The translations under genes were made by a program, and so were the position numbers. From the IMG/VR virus record IMGVR_UViG_3300009285_000349, positions 1-36,534 of that record: DNA of 36,534 bases; one strand, 5' to 3'. Below, in pieces: positions 1 through 5,288 of this stretch; position 1 is the stretch's first letter; each line of letters begins with the position of its first letter. The notes beneath the pieces are model-generated. The model was given only the letters and a program-made list of their open reading frames with translations. It was not told the origin of the DNA and ran no database searches. The stretch is from a virus.

Positions 1-441
1 AGCGACCTTCGCACCTGTTTCAAAGTCCAAAATTCCTAAAGCTTTTCCGAGTTCCAAGTGATCTTTAGGTGCAAAGTTAAATTTTTTTGGTTCTCCCCAT
101 TTTCTGACTTCAACGTTGTCTTTTTCGTCTTTGCCAACAGGAACCATGTCCAAAGCTGGATTGGGAATTAAGTTTAAAGCATTAAAATAGTTCTTTTCGG
201 CTTTATCGAGTTCTGGTTCCTTTTTTTTAAGCTCCTCTTTAACTTGCTTACCGGCTACAATGTTTTTTGATTTTGCAATTTCATTCCTCTCTGCTCTCAA
301 AGTTTCAATTTCGCCAATAAGTTTTCTGCGCCTTTCATCGATCTCAAGGAGTTTGTCTACCAACGAAGGATCCATTTGTTTATCTTTAACTGCCTTTTTA
401 AACTTTCCTGGATCTTCTCTAAGTAATTGAATATTAATCAC
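1..441 (-). CDS. serS: Seryl-tRNA synthetase, N-terminal part (cut by window edge)
   Basis: The minus strand reads 147 codons without a stop, from a GTG at 441 to the window edge. The product starts MINIQLLREDPGKF and continues as a basic/acidic helical arm (about residues 25-95), as in the coiled-coil tRNA-binding arm of SerRS. It then shows the family signature around residues 100-147: PNPALDMVPVGKDE, WGEP, PKDHLELG and LGILDFE. SerRS charges tRNA-Ser with serine in the cytoplasm. The class II catalytic core lies outside the window. The GTG start matches the usual SerRS N-terminus, and no ATG fits better. This housekeeping gene is the main evidence that the left end is bacterial chromosome rather than phage. 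Confidence 0.93.
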   Translation of the reverse strand, partial: MINIQLLREDPGKFKKAVKDKQMDPSLVDKLLEIDERRRKLIGEIETLRAERNEIAKSKNIVAGKQVKEELKKKEPELDKAEKNYFNALNLIPNPALDMVPVGKDEKDNVEVRKWGEPKKFNFAPKDHLELGKALGILDFETGAKVA

Positions 442-612
442 GTTTTGATTATACCTTACAATGCATGCTTATTAATATTCTCTCGTAAACTTTCCAATTT
501 GAAGGGGGTTCTTAATATTTACTGTTATGCAAGTACAAGTTCAGATTGCTACTTCGGGATCAGCGCTTTTTCCTATTTCCTATTGTGCGATTTAACAATA
601 TTGAAGATAAAA
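442..612. other. Left flank of the cassette array
   Basis: These 171 bases lie between the divergent serS start and the first plus-strand ORF. I see no convincing gene. GTTATGC at 524-530 resembles an integron R box, but no complementary partner or stem arms surround it, so I do not call it an att site. No integrase gene is present on this side. Confidence 0.5.
448..453 (-). promoter_or_regulatory. Possible -10 box of serS
   Basis: A TATAAT hexamer on the minus strand ends 6 nt before the serS GTG. If used, transcription would start at or very near the start codon and the mRNA would be leaderless. No good -35 and no Bacteroidota TAnnTTTG box is seen, so the call is weak. Confidence 0.35.
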
Positions 613-765
613 ATGTATAATAATCCACAATCTAAAATGAGATTTGGTCTTGATGAAAGGTCTCAAGAAATAAGAGACTTGAAAAAGAAAATTAAAAAAG
701 TATTGAGCGAAAAGATTGCATCTAAATTAATTGATAAACAGAACTTCTTTATTGAAAAATGTTAG
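613..765 (+). CDS. Small basic coiled-coil-like protein, unknown
   Basis: A 50-aa ORF starts at ATG 613 after a GAAG-type Shine-Dalgarno and ends in TAG at 763-765. The product is rich in Lys and Glu and predicted helical from about residue 15 (EIRDLKKKIKKVL). It precedes the first attC but contains no internal attC arm, and nothing upstream pairs with its 3' end. It is therefore either ancestral flanking DNA or a decayed cassette. An in-frame upstream extension to 427 is open but has no ribosome site. I do not recognise the family. Confidence 0.5.
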   Translation: MYNNPQSKMRFGLDERSQEIRDLKKKIKKVLSEKIASKLIDKQNFFIEKC

Positions 766-778
766 CCAAAAAAAACAA

Positions 779-967
779 TTATAACAGCGCGGCGCATAAG
801 CAGTTGCGGTAACAACAATTTAACAAAATAGGAGATAAATATTATGGGATATGCCGAAGAACAAATTAAAGACTATATGGATAATTTAGACCAAAATTAT
901 GCCGAACATTACGAAAAAGAAAACTTGCCAGAAGATGAAAGCAATCTGCTTGATGCGCAAGTTATAA
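779..967 (-). other. attC of cassette 1
   Basis: Outer boxes are TTATAAC 779-785 and GTTATAA 961-967. The stem pairs GCGCAT 792-797 with ATGCGC 953-958, AAGCAG 798-803 with CTGCTT 946-951, and TTGC 804-807 with GCAA 941-944. G952 and T945 are extrahelical. Spacers are 6 nt (786-791) and 2 nt (959-960). The loop holds the Shine-Dalgarno and start of the next ORF. Confidence 0.85.
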
Positions 968-1224
968 AGTTGCTTGCGGACAGGCATATAAATATTATTG
1001 AATTAAAACATCTTATGAATAAAGTTAAGCGTGTTAAAATAAAAGATGACCTTGAACGAATACTAATAAAAGATTTGGGCGAAAGTTACGACAGAATTGA
1101 AGATAAAAATTTTATAAACAAATATGCTGGTAAAATAGCGAACATTTATGAGTGGTGCGGGGATTGGTGGATATTAGAAGATGACAATTATATTATTACA
1201 GAAAATTGCTTTGCGAAAATTTAG
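844..1224 (+). CDS. Cassette 1 protein, acidic, unknown
   Basis: A 126-aa product starts at ATG 844 behind AGGAGA (830-835). It is acidic and helical, with a tyrosine- and glutamate-rich N-terminus (residues 1-35) encoded in the attC loop. The attC arm and R box are translated as ...ESNLLDAQVIKLL; GTT at 961 is codon 40, in phase. The C-terminal half contains a Trp-rich segment, YEWCGDWWILEDDNYI. The stop is TAG at 1222-1224, about 16 nt before the crossover box. The gene keeps its whole reading frame inside one cassette. No family is recognised. Confidence 0.75.
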   Translation: MGYAEEQIKDYMDNLDQNYAEHYEKENLPEDESNLLDAQVIKLLADRHINIIELKHLMNKVKRVKIKDDLERILIKDLGESYDRIEDKNFINKYAGKIANIYEWCGDWWILEDDNYIITENCFAKI

Positions 1225-1234
1225 CAAGCAATCT

Positions 1235-1367
1235 TTATAACAGAGTGGCTGGTAACTTGCCGAGCGTAAATTTTATAAATAAAAATAAGGATTAAGAACT
1301 ATGAGTGAAGAAAAAACCCAAATTGACCGAGCGAGTAGCGAGGTCAATGTTGACCAGCAAGTTAGGC
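1235..1367 (-). other. attC of cassette 2
   Basis: Boxes are TTATAAC 1235-1241 and GTTAGGC 1361-1367. GCTGGT 1248-1253 pairs with ACCAGC 1353-1358, and G1352 is extrahelical. Further pairing (AAC, TTG, CC) is interrupted by extra bases on the ORF-side arm. The inner loop has CCGAGCG and a GACC...GGTC hairpin (1325-1345) shared with attC4 and attC8. Confidence 0.8.
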
Positions 1368-1633
1368 GGAAATTTCTTCCGGGTGATTGGATAAGTATGT
1401 TCTATGGATTTGACAGAGAAATATTTTATGTGCTGAAATATAATTCCGAAACCGGGATCGTTATTATTGGTAATCCGAAATGGTGCGTAAGCGATTCTAA
1501 AACGATAGGGATAGAAGAACTACTTAGTAGAAAAGCAAAATATGTTTGTAGCACACGGCGGAACATTTTGAGATATATATTTTTCCCGGTGAGGAATTTG
1601 ATATGCCCGTTTTATAAACCATTTTCCGCCTAA
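1301..1633 (+). CDS. Cassette 2 protein, unknown
   Basis: A 110-aa product starts at ATG 1301 after an AAGG Shine-Dalgarno. The first 20 residues come from the attC loop and include IDRASSEV. GTT of the R box is codon 21 (DQQVRRKF), in phase. The body (LPGDWISMFYGF, then alternating hydrophobic strands) looks like a small beta-rich domain. It is followed by a basic, aromatic C-terminal tail that could be membrane-associated. The stop TAA 1631-1633 is itself part of the TAAC crossover box, so gene and cassette end together. No homology is recognised. Confidence 0.72.
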   Translation: MSEEKTQIDRASSEVNVDQQVRRKFLPGDWISMFYGFDREIFYVLKYNSETGIVIIGNPKWCVSDSKTIGIEELLSRKAKYVCSTRRNILRYIFFPVRNLICPFYKPFSA

Positions 1634-1820
1634 CGGTGCGGTTTTTAACAAGCCGCGACAAAACAAAATAAGGAATTAGAGTTATGAAACCAGAAATTTT
1701 ATTAGCAACACAAAGAGCAATGGAAGAATATTATTCCGATCCTCAATTGATGAACGACATGACGGTTGAACAACATATAGCTGATTGTATTAGCGGTCTT
1801 GTTGAAAAACTTAGTTATGC
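1628..1820 (-). other. attC of cassette 3
   Basis: Boxes are GCCTAAC 1628-1634 and GTTATGC 1814-1820. GTTTTT 1641-1646 pairs with AAAAAC 1805-1810, AACAAG 1647-1652 with CTTGTT 1798-1803, and CCGC 1653-1656 with GCGG 1793-1796. G1804 and T1797 are extrahelical. The ORF-side spacer is 3 nt, which shifts the reading phase of the box. Confidence 0.87.
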
Positions 1821-2016
1821 AAGCCCAGCTTCATCGGGCGTCCAAAACGGCGGACAATATATACCTAACTTGAAAAATATTTGGCAAGTAAGACAGATAA
1901 AATGCGGTAATGATAATATAACAATGATAGTGGACACCACAACACCTAATGATGAAATTTGGTTTGTTGATGCAGATGGACATACACAAAAATTTAAGAT
2001 GACCCAAACACCATAG
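1684..2016 (+). CDS. Cassette 3 protein, unknown
   Basis: A 110-aa product starts at ATG 1684 after AAGGA. The N-terminal helix-rich part (residues 1-43, TVEQHIADCISGLVEKL) is encoded by the attC loop and arm. The R box is read in a different phase from most cassettes (SYA). Codons 47-53 cover an inserted 20-nt mini-hairpin. The C-terminal half (WQVRQIKCGNDNITMIVDTTT, EIWFVDADGH) is a predicted beta domain. The stop is TAG 2014-2016. The minus-strand ORF across 1831-2046 is a shadow. Function unknown. Confidence 0.72.
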   Translation: MKPEILLATQRAMEEYYSDPQLMNDMTVEQHIADCISGLVEKLSYASPASSGVQNGGQYIPNLKNIWQVRQIKCGNDNITMIVDTTTPNDEIWFVDADGHTQKFKMTQTP

Positions 2017-2026
2017 CCGTTTTGGT

Positions 2027-2231
2027 GTATAACGGATCAGCGACAACCCGCCGAGCGGGAATGTAAACTAAAATAGGAATTGAGAAATGAACGAAGGAAT
2101 ATTAAAATTTATTTGTGCGATTACTGGACATGACGAAGTAACAATTAAACAAATGTTCAACGATTGGTTAAAATCCCCTTCATCAAAGACCGACCGAGCA
2201 AGTGAGGACGGAGTTGGTTGCGTAGTTAGTT
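2027..2231 (-). other. attC of cassette 4
   Basis: Boxes are GTATAAC 2027-2033 and GTTAGTT 2225-2231. GCGAC 2040-2044 pairs with GTTGC 2217-2221 (one G-T), AAC 2045-2047 with GTT 2213-2215, CCG 2048-2050 with CGG 2209-2211, and CC 2051-2052 with GG 2206-2207. Extrahelical G2216, A2212 and A2208 are all on the ORF-side arm. It has the same inner CCGAGCG class as attC2 and attC8. Confidence 0.78.
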
Positions 2232-2410
2232 TGCCGAGCAAAGGAAATAAGTGTTGCGAACTTTGTAAACATTGTAAGGTTGATAATGATATTACTTCTG
2301 CATCAAGAGGCGATCACCTTTGTTTTAACAGCAAATCTGATTGCTACTATTTAGGCGAGTTAAGAAATATAAAGTCTTTTTATTGTTCTGAATTTGCGAG
2401 GTCAAACTAA
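2087..2410 (+). CDS. Cassette 4 protein, Cys-rich, probable zinc-binding
   Basis: A 107-aa product starts at ATG 2087 after TAGGA. Residues 1-46 come from the attC loop and include TDRASEDGVG. GTT of the R box is codon 47 (GCVVSL), in phase. The cassette body is cysteine-rich: CCELCKHC near residue 60, then C-x6-C, then FYCSEF near the end. This resembles small phage or plasmid zinc-knuckle proteins of the CxxC...C...C...YCSxF type. Stop TAA 2408-2410 lies in the crossover box. The Cys pattern is loosely shared with cassette 8. Metal binding is inferred. Confidence 0.72.
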   Translation: MNEGILKFICAITGHDEVTIKQMFNDWLKSPSSKTDRASEDGVGCVVSLPSKGNKCCELCKHCKVDNDITSASRGDHLCFNSKSDCYYLGELRNIKSFYCSEFARSN

Positions 2411-2606
2411 CGTAGTTGCGTTTGTGCCGTTGCGGAAACATTTTATAAAACTAAATAGGAGTAGAAAATGGATATTGGAATTTTATTTGCCAAATACTGC
2501 GATGTGAAAGATTTACAAGAACCACATCAAAACGCATTGAGCCAAGATGCTTTAGTGAAATTAATTGAAGAATATGAAAGCAATCGGCACGAAACGCGAG
2601 TTAGCC
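2405..2606 (-). other. attC of cassette 5
   Basis: Boxes are AACTAAC 2405-2411 and GTTAGCC 2600-2606. GCGTTT 2418-2423 pairs with AAACGC 2592-2597, GTGCCG 2424-2429 with CGGCAC 2585-2590, and TTGC 2430-2433 with GCAA 2580-2583. G2591 and T2584 are extrahelical. It has the same geometry as attC1. Confidence 0.88.
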
Positions 2607-2836
2607 AGAAAAATGCACCAGGGGGTGGGACACAATTATATTTTATCAGTTATAGTTTCTGGCAATATACTTATGACGATAGCAAACTTGAAGGGGACAC
2701 AGTGGAAGGTTTTGAGAATACCGTTGAAGATTGCCATATAGAACGATTTGAGGACGTTGAAGCGTTAGAAGATAAATTGAGAAAACGGTTAGGATATGAC
2801 GGACTGACCATAATTAATTACATTAAAATTAACTAA
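2468..2836 (+). CDS. Cassette 5 protein, unknown
   Basis: A 122-aa product starts at ATG 2468 after TAGGAG. Residues 1-44 derive from the attC loop and arm (ALVKLIEEYESNRHET), and GTT is codon 45 (TRVSQK), in phase. The body has a strand-rich stretch (QLYFISYSFWQYTYDD) followed by an acidic segment and a helix (DVEALEDKLRKRLGY). Stop TAA 2834-2836 is 15 nt before the crossover box. The end of the cassette pairs with the segment following the internal GTTAGCC. No family is recognised. Confidence 0.72.
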   Translation: MDIGILFAKYCDVKDLQEPHQNALSQDALVKLIEEYESNRHETRVSQKNAPGGGTQLYFISYSFWQYTYDDSKLEGDTVEGFENTVEDCHIERFEDVEALEDKLRKRLGYDGLTIINYIKIN

Positions 2837-2847
2837 GCATTTTTTCG

Positions 2848-2980
2848 GGCTAACGAAGTTGCCACTAAACTGCAAACGGACATAAAAGGAAGAACTATTA
2901 TGGAAAATAATTCAGAGACTACTAATAAAACTCAAATTGCAACAAACGAAAGTTTGTCAGATTTGAGTGGCTTGTTAGCT
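2848..2980 (-). other. attC of cassette 6
   Basis: Boxes are GGCTAAC 2848-2854 and GTTAGCT 2974-2980. GCCACT 2861-2866 pairs with AGTGGC 2966-2971, AAA 2867-2869 with TTT 2962-2964, and CTG 2870-2872 with CAG 2958-2960. G2965 and A2961 are extrahelical. At 133 bp it and attC2 are the shortest sites. Confidence 0.85.
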
Positions 2981-3271
2981 GGCGACCGTATTTGGTTTGA
3001 TGAAGAAAAAAGACCATATACGATTAAAGCAGCGAACAAGCGATTTAAGGTTTGCACAAAACCATACAACATTAAACACACTGTAATTTATACAATCGTT
3101 GACTTGGACAGACAGATTAGAGGAACTGAAAACTTAGTTTTTTGTATGGGGTTTGAGAACATAAAGTTATGCAAAGAAGCATTAAAAAGATTAGAGAATG
3201 GCGAAAGCGAAGTGAGCAGTAGGAATAATATCCCATTAAAAATATCTAAAACGGAAAGGTCGTCCAGCTAA
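2900..3271 (+). CDS. Cassette 6 protein, conserved phage/plasmid-type hypothetical
   Basis: A 123-aa product starts at ATG 2900 after AAGGAAG. Residues 1-24 come from the attC loop (Asn/Thr-rich, low complexity) and the R box is read as LLAGD. The body matches my memory of a widespread hypothetical phage protein with the order LLxGDRxWFxEE, RPYxxxAxxxRFxxCTKP, TVxYTIVDxxxxxRGxxNLVFxxGFE, LxxGExEVSxRNxxPL; all these blocks can be read here. Stop TAA 3269-3271 lies in the crossover box. The matching part begins right at the R box, so the loop-encoded N-terminus appears to be an add-on. Function unknown. Confidence 0.8.
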   Translation: MENNSETTNKTQIATNESLSDLSGLLAGDRIWFDEEKRPYTIKAANKRFKVCTKPYNIKHTVIYTIVDLDRQIRGTENLVFCMGFENIKLCKEALKRLENGESEVSSRNNIPLKISKTERSSS

Positions 3272-3458
3272 CGGTGTGGCGTTTCACCGGATTGCGAAAA
3301 CAAAAAAAATATAAGAAGGAAAATAAAATGGGAAATGTGAATAAAATTTTAGTTGATATAATAAATAACATTGACAAATACGAGAAGCCATTTATAGCAG
3401 AACAATTATTTGTCGTCGTGAGAGAACTCAGCAATTCCGGTGCAAACGTATGTTATAG
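3266..3458 (-). other. attC of cassette 7
   Basis: Boxes are AGCTAAC 3266-3272 and GTTATAG 3452-3458. CGTTT 3280-3284 pairs with AAACG 3444-3448, CACCGG 3285-3290 with CCGGTG 3437-3442, and ATTGC 3291-3295 with GCAAT 3431-3435. C3443 and T3436 are extrahelical. The ORF-side spacer is 3 nt. Confidence 0.86.
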
Positions 3459-3717
3459 CGAGGGCGCAGTTCAGCCCGGTGCGGTTGCGGAAGAGAAGTT
3501 AATTTTTGATTGGAAAGAGGGCGAGTTGATAAGCGGAGACCCATTATTTTATTTGGATGATTGTCATGGAGTATCGGTGGACAATTATGTTGACCACATA
3601 GATATTAAATTTTATCAACGCATAAAAGAGAATGGGAAAACTTATTGCCGGGTTACAAAAAAACATACTCTTGATGTAGCCAAATTAGCAGAGGCACTTA
3701 AACTTTTAGAAGAATGA
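3328..3717 (+). CDS. Cassette 7 protein, unknown
   Basis: A 129-aa product. I chose ATG 3328 because AGAAGGA (3314-3320) precedes it and the other cassettes have the same layout; the frame is open upstream to a GTG at 3274. Residues 1-41 are helical (VNKILVDIINNIDKYEKPFIAEQLFVVV) and encoded in the attC loop. Codons 46-51 cover an 18-nt mini-hairpin inserted after the R box. The body is strand-rich (LIFDWKEGELI, DIKFYQRIKENG) and ends in a helix (DVAKLAEALKLLEE). The stop is TGA. No family is recognised. Confidence 0.7.
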   Translation: MGNVNKILVDIINNIDKYEKPFIAEQLFVVVRELSNSGANVCYSEGAVQPGAVAEEKLIFDWKEGELISGDPLFYLDDCHGVSVDNYVDHIDIKFYQRIKENGKTYCRVTKKHTLDVAKLAEALKLLEE

Positions 3718-3731
3718 CAGCAACCGCATCG

Positions 3732-3985
3732 CTATAACGAAGCTCCGGCTTACCCGCCGAGCGACATTAAAAACTAAAATAGGAATTGGAAAATGAACGC
3801 ACAAAAAATAGTTGATCATGCAATAAAGAAAGGTTACTTGGTTGAGTGCTGCGGTGGATGTGGCAAAACATATAAAGCGGATTACGATTGTGGTTGCCCC
3901 GCTGGTTCAAGTTATAAATGGAATCCAAATTTGATTTTTTTGCCGACCGAGCAAGCGAGGTCGGTTGTAGAGCCGGAAGTTAAAC
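3732..3985 (-). other. attC of cassette 8
   Basis: Boxes are CTATAAC 3732-3738 and GTTAAAC 3979-3985. CCGGCT 3745-3750 pairs with AGCCGG 3971-3976, TAC 3751-3753 with GTA 3967-3969, and CC 3754-3755 with GG 3963-3964. G3970 and T3965-T3966 are extrahelical. The CCGAGCG and GACC...GGTC elements recur as in attC2 and attC4. Confidence 0.82.
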
Positions 3986-4170
3986 CGACTTGCGTAAATT
4001 GTTTCTATGCAACCACTATAAAGAATGATGACGTAATTTCTTCTATATGCCATTGTCAGATAAGTCCTATTTGTTGGATGCAAGAAAAAGAAATTAAATA
4101 CGGAATACCTATTACCAGAATGCGAGAATGCGATGGATGCAATCATTTTAAGAAAGCAAGTTCGGTTTAA
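3793..4170 (+). CDS. Cassette 8 protein, two Cys clusters, probable zinc-binding
   Basis: A 125-aa product starts at ATG 3793 after TAGGAATTGG. The attC loop supplies residues 1-62, which carry their own cysteine cluster (CCGGCGKTY, DCGCPAGSSYKWNPN). GTT of the R box is codon 63 (EPEVKPTC), in phase. The body has a second set: C-x2-C, CHCQISPIC and RECDGCNHF. Stop TAA 4168-4170 lies in the crossover box. The two Cys clusters sit on opposite sides of the R box, so the protein may be a fusion of two small metal-binding modules. Metal binding is inferred. Confidence 0.75.
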   Translation: MNAQKIVDHAIKKGYLVECCGGCGKTYKADYDCGCPAGSSYKWNPNLIFLPTEQARSVVEPEVKPTCVNCFYATTIKNDDVISSICHCQISPICWMQEKEIKYGIPITRMRECDGCNHFKKASSV

Positions 4171-4363
4171 CATATAGCGGGCTAACTTGTCTGCGGAAAG
4201 GATATTATGAGTTTTGCAATACATAAAAAACTTGGCACAATAAAAGAAATACCAAAACACGCAGAGGGATGGATGAATAACGAATGGGCTGTATATGACA
4301 AATTTCCCACAGAAGAAAATTATTTTGAGGCAATAGCAGGTCAAGTTGAGCCCGTAGTTATTG
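4165..4363 (-). other. attC of cassette 9
   Basis: Boxes are GTTTAAC 4165-4171 (fits RYYYAAC) and GTTATTG 4357-4363. CGGGCT 4178-4183 pairs with AGCCCG 4349-4354, AACTTG 4184-4189 with CAAGTT 4342-4347, and CTGC 4191-4194 with GCAG 4336-4339. G4348 and T4341 are extrahelical. Confidence 0.88.
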
Positions 4364-4542
4364 TGAAAACGGCGGGGAGGACATTATTAGACTACGCAAA
4401 ATCGTGGGCTCAAAGATATAATAAGGATGGTAAAGAAAAGGAAGAATTAAAGATAAGTTTTGTAATAATAGCTAAACATCTATTCGCTTTAACCGATAAA
4501 GAATTATTAAGGTTAAAACACAATAGCCGTTTTTCAGAATAA
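4207..4542 (+). CDS. Cassette 9 protein, unknown
   Basis: A 111-aa product starts at ATG 4207 after AAAGGA, with an unusually short gap from the stem arm. Residues 1-50 (GWMNNEWAVYDKFPTEENYF) come from the attC loop and GTT is codon 51 (EPVVIVK), in phase. The rest is helical and basic (LLDYAKSWAQRYNKDGKEKEE, FALTDKELLRLKHN). Stop TAA 4540-4542 lies in the crossover box. The minus-strand ORF over 3907-4344 is a shadow. No family is recognised. Confidence 0.72.
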   Translation: MSFAIHKKLGTIKEIPKHAEGWMNNEWAVYDKFPTEENYFEAIAGQVEPVVIVKTAGRTLLDYAKSWAQRYNKDGKEKEELKISFVIIAKHLFALTDKELLRLKHNSRFSE

Positions 4543-4789
4543 CAGAGTGGCGGTTGTGCTTTTGCGGAACAGTTTTATAATAACAAATAGAGGTTTAACA
4601 TGACACACGAAGATTTTGAAGAAATACTTAATTGTAGCGAATGTAGCACTGCTTTAACTGATAATGATTGGAGCGAAACTTATTCGGTTCCTCTTTCAAT
4701 GACAATTAAAGAGATAAAGAGTTTGAGCCAAACATTAAAAACACATGAAACGTTGCTTAACAGCAACAAGCACGAACCGCAAGTTAAAC
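4537..4789 (-). other. attC of cassette 10
   Basis: Boxes are GAATAAC 4537-4543 and GTTAAAC 4783-4789. GCGGTT 4550-4555 pairs with AACCGC 4775-4780, GTGCTT 4556-4561 with AAGCAC 4768-4773, and TTGC 4562-4565 with GCAA 4763-4766. G4774 and C4767 are extrahelical. With cassette 8 it has the longest loop. Confidence 0.88.
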
Positions 4790-4980
4790 GGATTTTGGCG
4801 GATGTGGAGAACCAAAAAACAATATTGAAACTATTTAGTTGCCAATGTGGCGAAACTTTACTGATAGGCAAACCACATACTAAAATTGTTAATAACCATA
4901 ATGAACTTGATTACCTTGAATGTAAATGCCCCGATTGCGAGATGGGGTGGAAAGTAAAAATAAGTTTTACGGAAATATAA
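4600..4980 (+). CDS. Cassette 10 protein, CxxC zinc-ribbon-like
   Basis: A 126-aa product starts at ATG 4600 after TAGAGG. Residues 1-61 come from the attC loop and contain CSEC near residue 12 and a helical linker (KEIKSLSQTLKTHETLL). GTT is codon 62 (EPQVKRI), in phase. The body has CQCGE near residue 84 and CKCPDC near residue 110. Four cysteine pairs or near-pairs spread over both sides of the R box suggest a zinc ribbon, although a ligand pair from the loop part would be needed. The stop is TAA 4978-4980, followed by the terminal GTTTAAC box. Confidence 0.73.
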   Translation: MTHEDFEEILNCSECSTALTDNDWSETYSVPLSMTIKEIKSLSQTLKTHETLLNSNKHEPQVKRILADVENQKTILKLFSCQCGETLLIGKPHTKIVNNHNELDYLECKCPDCEMGWKVKISFTEI

Positions 4981-4991
4981 GCCAAAATTCC

Positions 4992-5054
4992 GTTTAACTA
5001 TCTACTAAGAGGCTATTAAGCCTAAGTTGTTTATTTATAATAAATTATAAGTAA
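4992..5054. other. Right end of array: terminal R box and candidate attI-side junction
   Basis: GTTTAAC 4992-4998 closes cassette 10, and no attC stem follows it. By attC polarity this is the platform-proximal end, where an attI site would be expected; on the minus strand the junction reads GATAGTTAAAC. A short hairpin, AGGCT(ATTA)AGCCT 5010-5023, may act as a weak terminator. Instead of an integrase gene, phage-like DNA begins here. Confidence 0.45.
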
Positions 5055-5068
5055 CTTTAATATTAAAG
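5055..5068. promoter_or_regulatory. 14-bp perfect palindrome, candidate RHH operator
   Basis: CTTTAATATTAAAG is perfectly palindromic and ends 10 nt before the ATG of a ribbon-helix-helix protein. RHH repressors commonly bind such sites to control their own operon. The overlapping TAACTTTA (5052-5059) could be a poor -7 box with TTG at 5027, but the 22-nt spacing is too long. Confidence 0.5.
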
Positions 5069-5078
5069 AGTATATATA

Positions 5079-5288
5079 ATGGGCAAACGTAAACAAATAG
5101 GTATTAAGTTACCAATTATGCTAATAAGTATTATTGATGAAATATCTATCCAGCAGGCAAAATCAAGAACTACTTTTATTGAAGAAGCAGTAAGAGAAAA
5201 ATTGAATCAGCTTAAAGTGAAGATTCCAACTAAGTATAAAGAGCCAATATATTATAATTCAGTTGAAGATATACCATTTGAGGAGTAA
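5079..5288 (+). CDS. Ribbon-helix-helix DNA-binding protein
   Basis: A 69-aa product starts at ATG 5079. It has the RHH (CopG/Arc) layout: a basic strand KRKQIGIKLP (3-12), helix A (ISIIDEISIQQA) and helix B starting SRTTFIEEAVREKLNQLK (about 29-46). Such dimers bind DNA with the paired strands in the major groove. The acidic tail (YYNSVEDIPFEE) may contact a partner. It is the first gene of the plus-strand phage module, directly behind a 14-bp palindrome, so an autoregulatory repressor is likely. A toxin partner is not evident, because the next gene is a zinc-knuckle protein. Confidence 0.85.
   Translation: MGKRKQIGIKLPIMLISIIDEISIQQAKSRTTFIEEAVREKLNQLKVKIPTKYKEPIYYNSVEDIPFEE

Follow-up and report, generated by a model that had tools for sequence, protein, structure and literature searches.

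Probable reverse integron cassettes in the early gene region of a phage, with attC sites that cover the gene starts

The window analyzed here is the whole of a virus record of 36,534 bases (IMG/VR record IMGVR_UViG_3300009285_000349), which carries a terminase, a portal, and other phage genes. Ten plus-strand open reading frames (ORFs) of 107 to 129 amino acids (aa) each fill positions 782 to 4998. Each ORF is preceded and partly covered by a site resembling attC, the recombination site of integrons. As part of the explanation developed below, the array is likely to consist of ten integron gene cassettes inside the phage early gene region. The E values in the following list come from R1, a covariance model built from 38 attC sites that adjoin bacterial integron integrases, with no phage sites in training.

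781-965, plus strand: attC 1 (TAAC 782, GTTA 961), holding AGGA, ATG and the first 39 codons of the ORF at 844-1224; E 2.5e-12
844-1224, plus strand: cassette gene 1, 126 aa, no family found
1237-1365, plus strand: attC 2 (TAAC 1238, GTTA 1361), covering the start of the ORF at 1301-1633; E 6.4e-9
1301-1633, plus strand: cassette gene 2, 110 aa; its stop TAA also forms part of the crossover box that follows
1630-1818, plus strand: attC 3 (TAAC 1631, GTTA 1814), covering the start of the ORF at 1684-2016; E 1.4e-10
1684-2016, plus strand: cassette gene 3, 110 aa
2029-2229, plus strand: attC 4, the weakest (TAAC 2030, GTTA 2225), covering the start of the ORF at 2087-2410; E 0.049
2087-2410, plus strand: cassette gene 4, 107 aa, Cys-rich C-terminal part; stop TAA within the crossover box
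2407-2604, plus strand: attC 5 (TAAC 2408, GTTA 2600), covering the start of the ORF at 2468-2836; E 1.2e-7
2468-2836, plus strand: cassette gene 5, 122 aa
2850-2978, plus strand: attC 6 (TAAC 2851, GTTA 2974), covering the start of the ORF at 2900-3271; E 9e-14; RNA fold z -4.1
2900-3271, plus strand: cassette gene 6, 123 aa; stop TAA within the crossover box
3268-3456, plus strand: attC 7 (TAAC 3269, GTTA 3452), unpaired C in place of G, covering the start of the ORF at 3328-3717; E 5.3e-6
3328-3717, plus strand: cassette gene 7, 129 aa counted from ATG
3734-3983, plus strand: attC 8 (TAAC 3735, GTTA 3979), covering the start of the ORF at 3793-4170; E 0.012
3793-4170, plus strand: cassette gene 8, 125 aa, Cys-rich; stop TAA within the crossover box
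4167-4361, plus strand: attC 9 (TAAC 4168, GTTA 4357), covering the start of the ORF at 4207-4542; E 6.6e-5
4207-4542, plus strand: cassette gene 9, 111 aa; stop TAA within the crossover box
4539-4787, plus strand: attC 10 (TAAC 4540, GTTA 4783), covering the start of the ORF at 4600-4980; E 0.0072
4600-4980, plus strand: cassette gene 10, 126 aa, Cys-rich
4982-4998, plus strand: right end of the array and of cassette 10, pairing with the GTTA region at 4783; the TAAC at 4995 is the last boundary and has no hairpin partner

The sites share one plan: TAAC, 6 nucleotides (nt), a stem that runs past an unpaired base, 8 nt, and GTTA inside the following ORF. A strict geometry scan (TAAC plus 12 nt, six inner pairs, at least three outer pairs, and one unpaired base plus 8 nt and GTTA) found eight matches on the plus strand of the window, all within the array, and none on the minus strand. 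In 200 dinucleotide shuffles of positions 701 to 5060, the mean was 0.005 strict matches and the maximum was 1. A one-base difference in one arm kept sites 3 and 4 out of the strict set; the spacing in site 3 is also 9 nt rather than 8. In the R1 alignment, 94.6% of the cells pair, with a covariation score of 0.371 versus 0.081 when shuffled. R1 found all ten sites on the plus strand, with E values of 9e-14 to 0.049, and had no match on the opposite strand inside the window array up to E 10. An opposite-strand match with an E value of 0.35 does occur outside the array of L018, and the strand claim is therefore confined to arrays.

An earlier sequence-only reading of this DNA had described ten sites with TAAC and GTTA outer boxes, and these are confirmed by reading of the arms, by the strict scan, and by a model that was trained on bacterial attC and matches all ten. 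The array was then said to start at 779; the sites themselves begin at 781/782. The reading had also placed an extrahelical G and T on the ORF-internal arm. The arm is right for all ten sites, the unpaired base is G in nine and C in site 7, and the T lies at the bacterial position in only five (1, 3, 5, 7, and 9). Compared with clusters of attC sites lacking integron integrases (CALINs), the array has R and L boxes with the unpaired bases on one arm (10/10 by R1, 8/10 by strict geometry), at least two attC sites close together with no integrase nearby, and cassettes whose ends are complementary, as in the attC of a circle. The usual CALIN layout, with attC after the stop codon and genes in the canonical direction, is seen in 0 of 10. 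We treat that layout as customary and not as a condition for recombination.

In R1, plus denotes the recombined (bottom) strand. That all matches in the array are on plus points to a crossover at TAA^C at the gene end, not at the GTTA inside the ORF. By homology with the bacterial sites, the predicted crossover box of the window is TAA^C at the end of each gene. The TAA of this box is the stop codon in 5 of the 10 ORFs (2, 4, 6, 8, and 9). The R1 strand equals the gene strand in 10/10 cassettes; that is, all ten genes are inverted. The inversion proposed from the sequence alone is thereby supported, bacterial cassettes being mostly of the opposite kind (105/119). The same reading had counted a plus-strand hit with crossover at GTTA within the ORFs as evidence against itself, and R1 places the crossover at TAA^C.

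The ends of the cassettes were compared by pairing the bases before TAAC(i+1) against those after GTTA(i) over 8 positions. Window cassette ends pair with their own partner at a mean of 6.2/8, versus 2.9 for the in-array hairpin and 2.7 for other combinations, and the sum was reached in 0 of 20,000 permutations. The same test gave 5.4 versus 2.9 in bacterial arrays. Because the ends of each cassette pair together and not with those of other cassettes, the array appears to have been assembled from cassettes. Such pairing is the trace that would be expected of circular cassettes with one attC each, although by itself it has no power to separate the two crossover positions.

For comparison with bacterial integrons, we used a sample of 395 genomes from the phylum of a Chitinophagaceae metagenome-assembled genome. 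Integron integrases (TIGR02249 match at E <= 1e-60) are present in 107 of them, 105 above the cut-off. Arrays of at least three sites occur in 15 of the 60 stretches taken around integrases, and their 77 sites, 38 of which went into R1, have the geometry of the phage sites (TAAC plus 11 or 12 nt; base plus 8 nt plus GTTA). Among the 119 bacterial cassettes with a site at each end, 105 are canonical, 4 are unclear, and 10 are inverted, one of the last being in a prophage, L122. The sequence-only reading had stated that no described cassette class with this layout is known; for the layout as a whole we also found none, but inversion alone is a known minority state of bacterial cassettes (10/119). 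Inverted ORFs of at least 80 aa that start inside attC were found at 4 of 153 bacterial sites (157 minus four weak ones: L073, the second of L107, L075, and L070), one of the four being in L122 and one being overlapped by a canonical ORF. Further integrase loci comprise two canonical, one inverted (L148), and one unclear, and a second prophage, L139, has 5/5 inverted. Fisher tests comparing 24 phage sites, or the 10 window sites, with cassettes of which 9 are inverted and 105 canonical gave 9e-20 and 6e-10, respectively, values that are too strong because related sites are treated as independent. As a separate observation, one bacterial array contains a run of inverted cassettes (L064, 8069-8344, 8468-8974, and 9115-9390) with one gene present twice with identical translation and, between the copies, a phage-type adenine methyltransferase (phrog_111).

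A relative of the window phage, G002, has a terminase that is 58% identical and a different array that includes two methyltransferases. R1 finds three of its sites on the coding strand at E <= 0.0023, and a fourth weakly. It had been proposed that a strictly conserved gene order across diverged genomes would speak against mobile cassettes; G002, the sole diverged relative with an array, carries quite different ones. More distant terminase relatives yielded one weak scan match in L081 and none in L080 and L082 to L084.

A bacterial genome, G303, has two integron integrases, both in prophages: L122, in which a portal and a DnaC-like loader were found, and L139, in which a terminase and a portal were found. 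In the order of G303, 64 of 128 genomes match a phage integrase at E <= 1e-60. Two features of these prophages are as follows.

L122, 8505-10818: phage region with an integron integrase (TIGR02249) and inverted cassettes, upstream of structural genes
L139, 11246-12400: RtcB-like ligase in a cassette

A scan of viral contigs with the integrases of the G303 prophages returned L156 (the same as L139), L157 (the same as L122, 99.98% over 16.9 kb), L158, and more distant ones. L156, L157, and L158, which represent two further phage types, encode an integron integrase (TIGR02249) that, as in L139, lies upstream of the structural genes, and terminase or portal genes were found. Their 6, 2, and 3 attC sites, respectively, share the strand of intI and the genes in 11/11 cases by R1, and the cassette ends pair at 7 to 8 of 8 positions in seven of eight cases. 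The three integrases fall into a single clade (support 0.998) nested among those of bacterial integrons. By reading, an attI-like stretch, TAACATA...CCGATC...TAA, is common to L156 (3492), L157 (7869), and L158 (7941), between the last cassette and intI. The platform thus appears to be the usual one, array, putative attI, and intI, with intI pointing away from the array; the turned part is the gene within the cassette. L159 to L164 are high-GC loci with integron integrases that are 41 to 42% identical (41% in the phage contigs L160 to L164). A single R1 match was found among them (L160, 7012-7065, E 0.0015, on the gene strand), together with one scan match in L163 on the strand of intI. L160 appears inverted by eye and was left out of the counts. 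Stems resembling attC that were seen by eye on the gene strand of L160 to L164 suggest that the reverse layout extends beyond one phylum. The sequence-only reading is extended in two respects: a phage carries the array, and cassettes are likewise inverted in other phages with an integron integrase of their own.

All ten window genes start inside attC, with 20 to 62 codons from ATG to GTTA, and the 18 nt before the ATG hold AGGA in nine cases and GAGG in one, which bears out the earlier description of loops with a Shine-Dalgarno sequence, an ATG, and 20 to 62 codons. In the ATG-to-GTTA segment, the codon usage of the ORF frame is the best of six in 10/10 cases, also when stops are ignored. Gene starts are spanned by 2 of 6 sites in L156 and by at least 1 of 3 in L158. 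These two phages share an attC and a 19-codon leader (109/119 nt identical, 92%; 15/19 residues), followed by unrelated DNA and proteins. In L156, GTTA comes after codon 43 and a complete DUF551 domain begins at residue 48. Homologs of a G002 methylase begin at its residues 57 to 65, after the attC part (4/4 phage records examined). Residues 30 to 119 of window ORF6 (2900-3271), just past attC, are 52 to 54% identical to Gordonia phage proteins. Of the 17 cassettes counted, 13 share one codon frame for GTTA (window 7/10, G002 3/4, L156 2/2, and L158 1/1; P = 3.4e-4 for a preset frame), a count that omits two uncertain ORFs, both in frame 0 (L157, 7072; L158, 7169). The match of the ORF6 body is also surprisingly close for one across bacterial phyla.

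The array is followed by plus-strand early genes, the first of which adjoins it:

5079-5288, plus strand: phage gene, ribbon-helix-helix

On the other side, window positions 1 to 681 encode, on the minus strand, the N-terminal part of a seryl-tRNA synthetase (PF02403, E 2.7e-16). A 49.5-kb record of the same phage, not a diverged genome, lacks this segment and has a helicase gene in its place. Positions 1 to 681 are probably a chimeric assembly end. The longer record contains the identical array between the DnaB-like helicase gene and the following early genes. In the window, no attI was recognized, an Rfam search gave zero matches, and a tRNA scan gave zero tRNAs. None of the ten cassette proteins had a Pfam match above the cut-off, and weak matches with eukaryotic names were disregarded. 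Searching the array DNA against 50,697 phage records in distant mode gave zero matches, and for ORF10 and the DnaB-like helicase the search for close relatives returned the same phage only. Among viral contigs, the pattern TTGCGGAAMMRTTTTATAA returned the known phage and seven others, all seven without attC of the window type. The pattern AGCGGGCTAACYTGYCTGCGG returned one unrelated phage and four bacterial contigs, and the geometry scan found no window-type attC in any. In two of the AGCGGGCTAACYTGYCTGCGG contigs, viewed gene by gene, the match lies inside a SusC-like or portal-type gene, and these matches served solely as the entry point to the phylum. A near-identical stretch, TTTGAGTTTTTAGTTATAA..TTTTTTGGC, is found just left of the G001 array (L001, 3961-4005) and inside the G002 array (L019, minus strand, about 17940-17900).

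We consider it likely that these arrays are phage-borne reverse integrons that use ordinary attC recombination, with genes inverted and with translation often beginning in attC, which then supplies the leader. In this scenario, a cassette would start after TAA^C, comprise a complete attC, with an AGGA-like sequence, the start codon, and the first codons in its loop, and then the gene body, and end at the next TAA^C. Ordinary integron recombination would act on the folded plus strand with an integrase from the host, on which the window phage and G002 would depend. We suggest that the phage's own transcription reads the array toward the attI/intI end, not away from it. Canonical cassettes would then be antisense, and inverted ones, as the only ones expressed, would be kept. 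With attC at the gene front, the site must either sit in an untranslated leader or be read through. In many cassettes it may be read through, giving the ribosome site, the start codon, and an N-terminal leader peptide. A bolder version is that phages evolved the reverse integron, either as a canonical attI-intI platform or as a host-dependent cluster, in which attC doubles as recombination site and translation start or leader, any ORF joined in frame to the attC in front of it yields a leader fusion expressed from the phage operon, and new cassettes enter beside intI, at the promoter-distal end. We regard this version as conceivable but lean against it.

Several observations weigh against reverse integrons. 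No integron integrase (TIGR02249) was found in cis in the window or in G001 to G003, records that may be incomplete. The ten window proteins had no match in 80 of the 107 integrase-bearing genomes, and exchange with hosts is thus unsupported. Two window sites are weak in R1 (E 0.012 and 0.049), as is the attC of the G002 methylase (E 0.39). Several genes in L156 to L158 start just after GTTA, so a start inside attC is not general there. Of the 10 nt differences in the attC and leader shared by L156 and L158, 7 lie in coding sequence, and 4 of these affect codon position 1 or 2, a pattern that does not suggest strong constraint at the protein level. Finally, ORF6 homologs have 19 to 70 residues of variable N terminus before the match. 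Because they have N termini of their own, the ORF6 leader may replace a variable N terminus and not extend the protein.

One rival holds that the phage picked up an ordinary host attC cluster and that its transcription selected a pre-existing minority of inverted cassettes, with nothing special to phages. Such hosts do hold inverted cassettes (one of the ten in a prophage), one of those in L064 encodes a phage-type adenine methylase, and attC clusters in phages are already known (excerpts of PMC9892861). However, the 4 of 153 bacterial sites with inverted ORFs starting inside attC compare with 10/10 here, and every cassette site is of the inverted kind (11/11) in the phages that encode an integrase. 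We consider host pick-up unlikely, though it is the most credible of the rivals.

A crossover at G^TTA inside the ORFs would instead swap protein bodies behind constant N-terminal modules. This kind of domain shuffling would account for the constant codon frame of GTTA and for the common leader with different bodies in L156 and L158, and the end pairing is compatible with it, yet common descent of the sites can also yield frame agreement. The arm with the extra base is ORF-internal at all ten sites, like the gene-end arm of bacterial sites, whose crossover lies in the other arm, and R1 matches only the plus strand inside the array. Domain shuffling is thus improbable. Equally hard to credit, or slightly more so, is that the stems act in the mRNA to control translation of a fixed set of phage genes, alike to attC by chance or old descent and with no recombination now. 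The phage has no integrase, the array is identical in two records of it, and four sites tested as RNA fold with z values of -4.1 to -1.8, all as expected for such structures. But the sites match a bacterial attC model, their ends pair across whole genes, a feature unnecessary for a 5' regulatory stem, and in a related phage the genes between such sites are wholly different ones.

In the usual description, integrons push genes outward from an attI promoter, and each gene has its attC behind it. In several types of phage seen here, some with their own integrase, the genes within the cassettes point the other way. If active, reverse integrons would be a route for phages to collect accessory genes; the cassette contents seen are methyltransferases, an RtcB-like ligase, and many small proteins of no known kind. 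They would also be a testable case of a recombination site that doubles as coding sequence. Because the same attC and leader precede unrelated bodies, they offer a handle on cassette origin.

According to excerpts of Qi et al. 2023 (PMC9892861), CALINs occur in virulent phages. These resemble the window in having attC sites and small cassettes without an integrase, and the published ones include methyltransferase cassettes. In one of these phages, TJE1, attC sites were active with IntI1 in published assays (PMC9892861). By our geometry scan, TJE1 has three sites, all on the strand opposite its genes, and R1 finds one, on the same strand; its genes are thus in the usual orientation, unlike those of the window. 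The attC sites of Polaribacter phage P12002L are reported to have divergent directions (PMC9892861). Its sole scan site (L133, 30008-30056) is short, intergenic, and on the gene strand, and its cassette may also be inverted. The excerpts of PMC9892861 make no mention of attC over gene starts. Sedentary chromosomal integrons exist in the Bacteroidota/Chlorobi group (excerpts of PMC9024848). They share the attC geometry and the cassette-end pairing with the window but have mostly canonical cassettes (105/119), attC after the stop codon, and an integrase. In the open-access literature, including the excerpts seen of PMC8352920, PMC9024848, and PMC9892861, we found no description of attC spanning gene starts or of inverted cassettes in phage integrons; neither preprints nor subscription papers came within the scope. 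The one paper retrieved there on integron components of phages is PMC9892861. Clusters of attC in phages are thus known, and an inverted layout that spans gene starts is without a description that we could find, which falls short of proof of novelty.

Toxin-antitoxin cassettes are an example of inverted cassettes that bring their own promoter. Such cassettes occur singly in otherwise canonical arrays, and their attC is not known to hold a gene start. They resemble the window cassettes in having a gene opposite to the usual direction and differ in these two features. In the inverse integrons of Treponema, intI is turned relative to the array. Here, in contrast, the genes within the cassettes are turned, whereas the intI and putative attI of L156 to L158 stand as usual.

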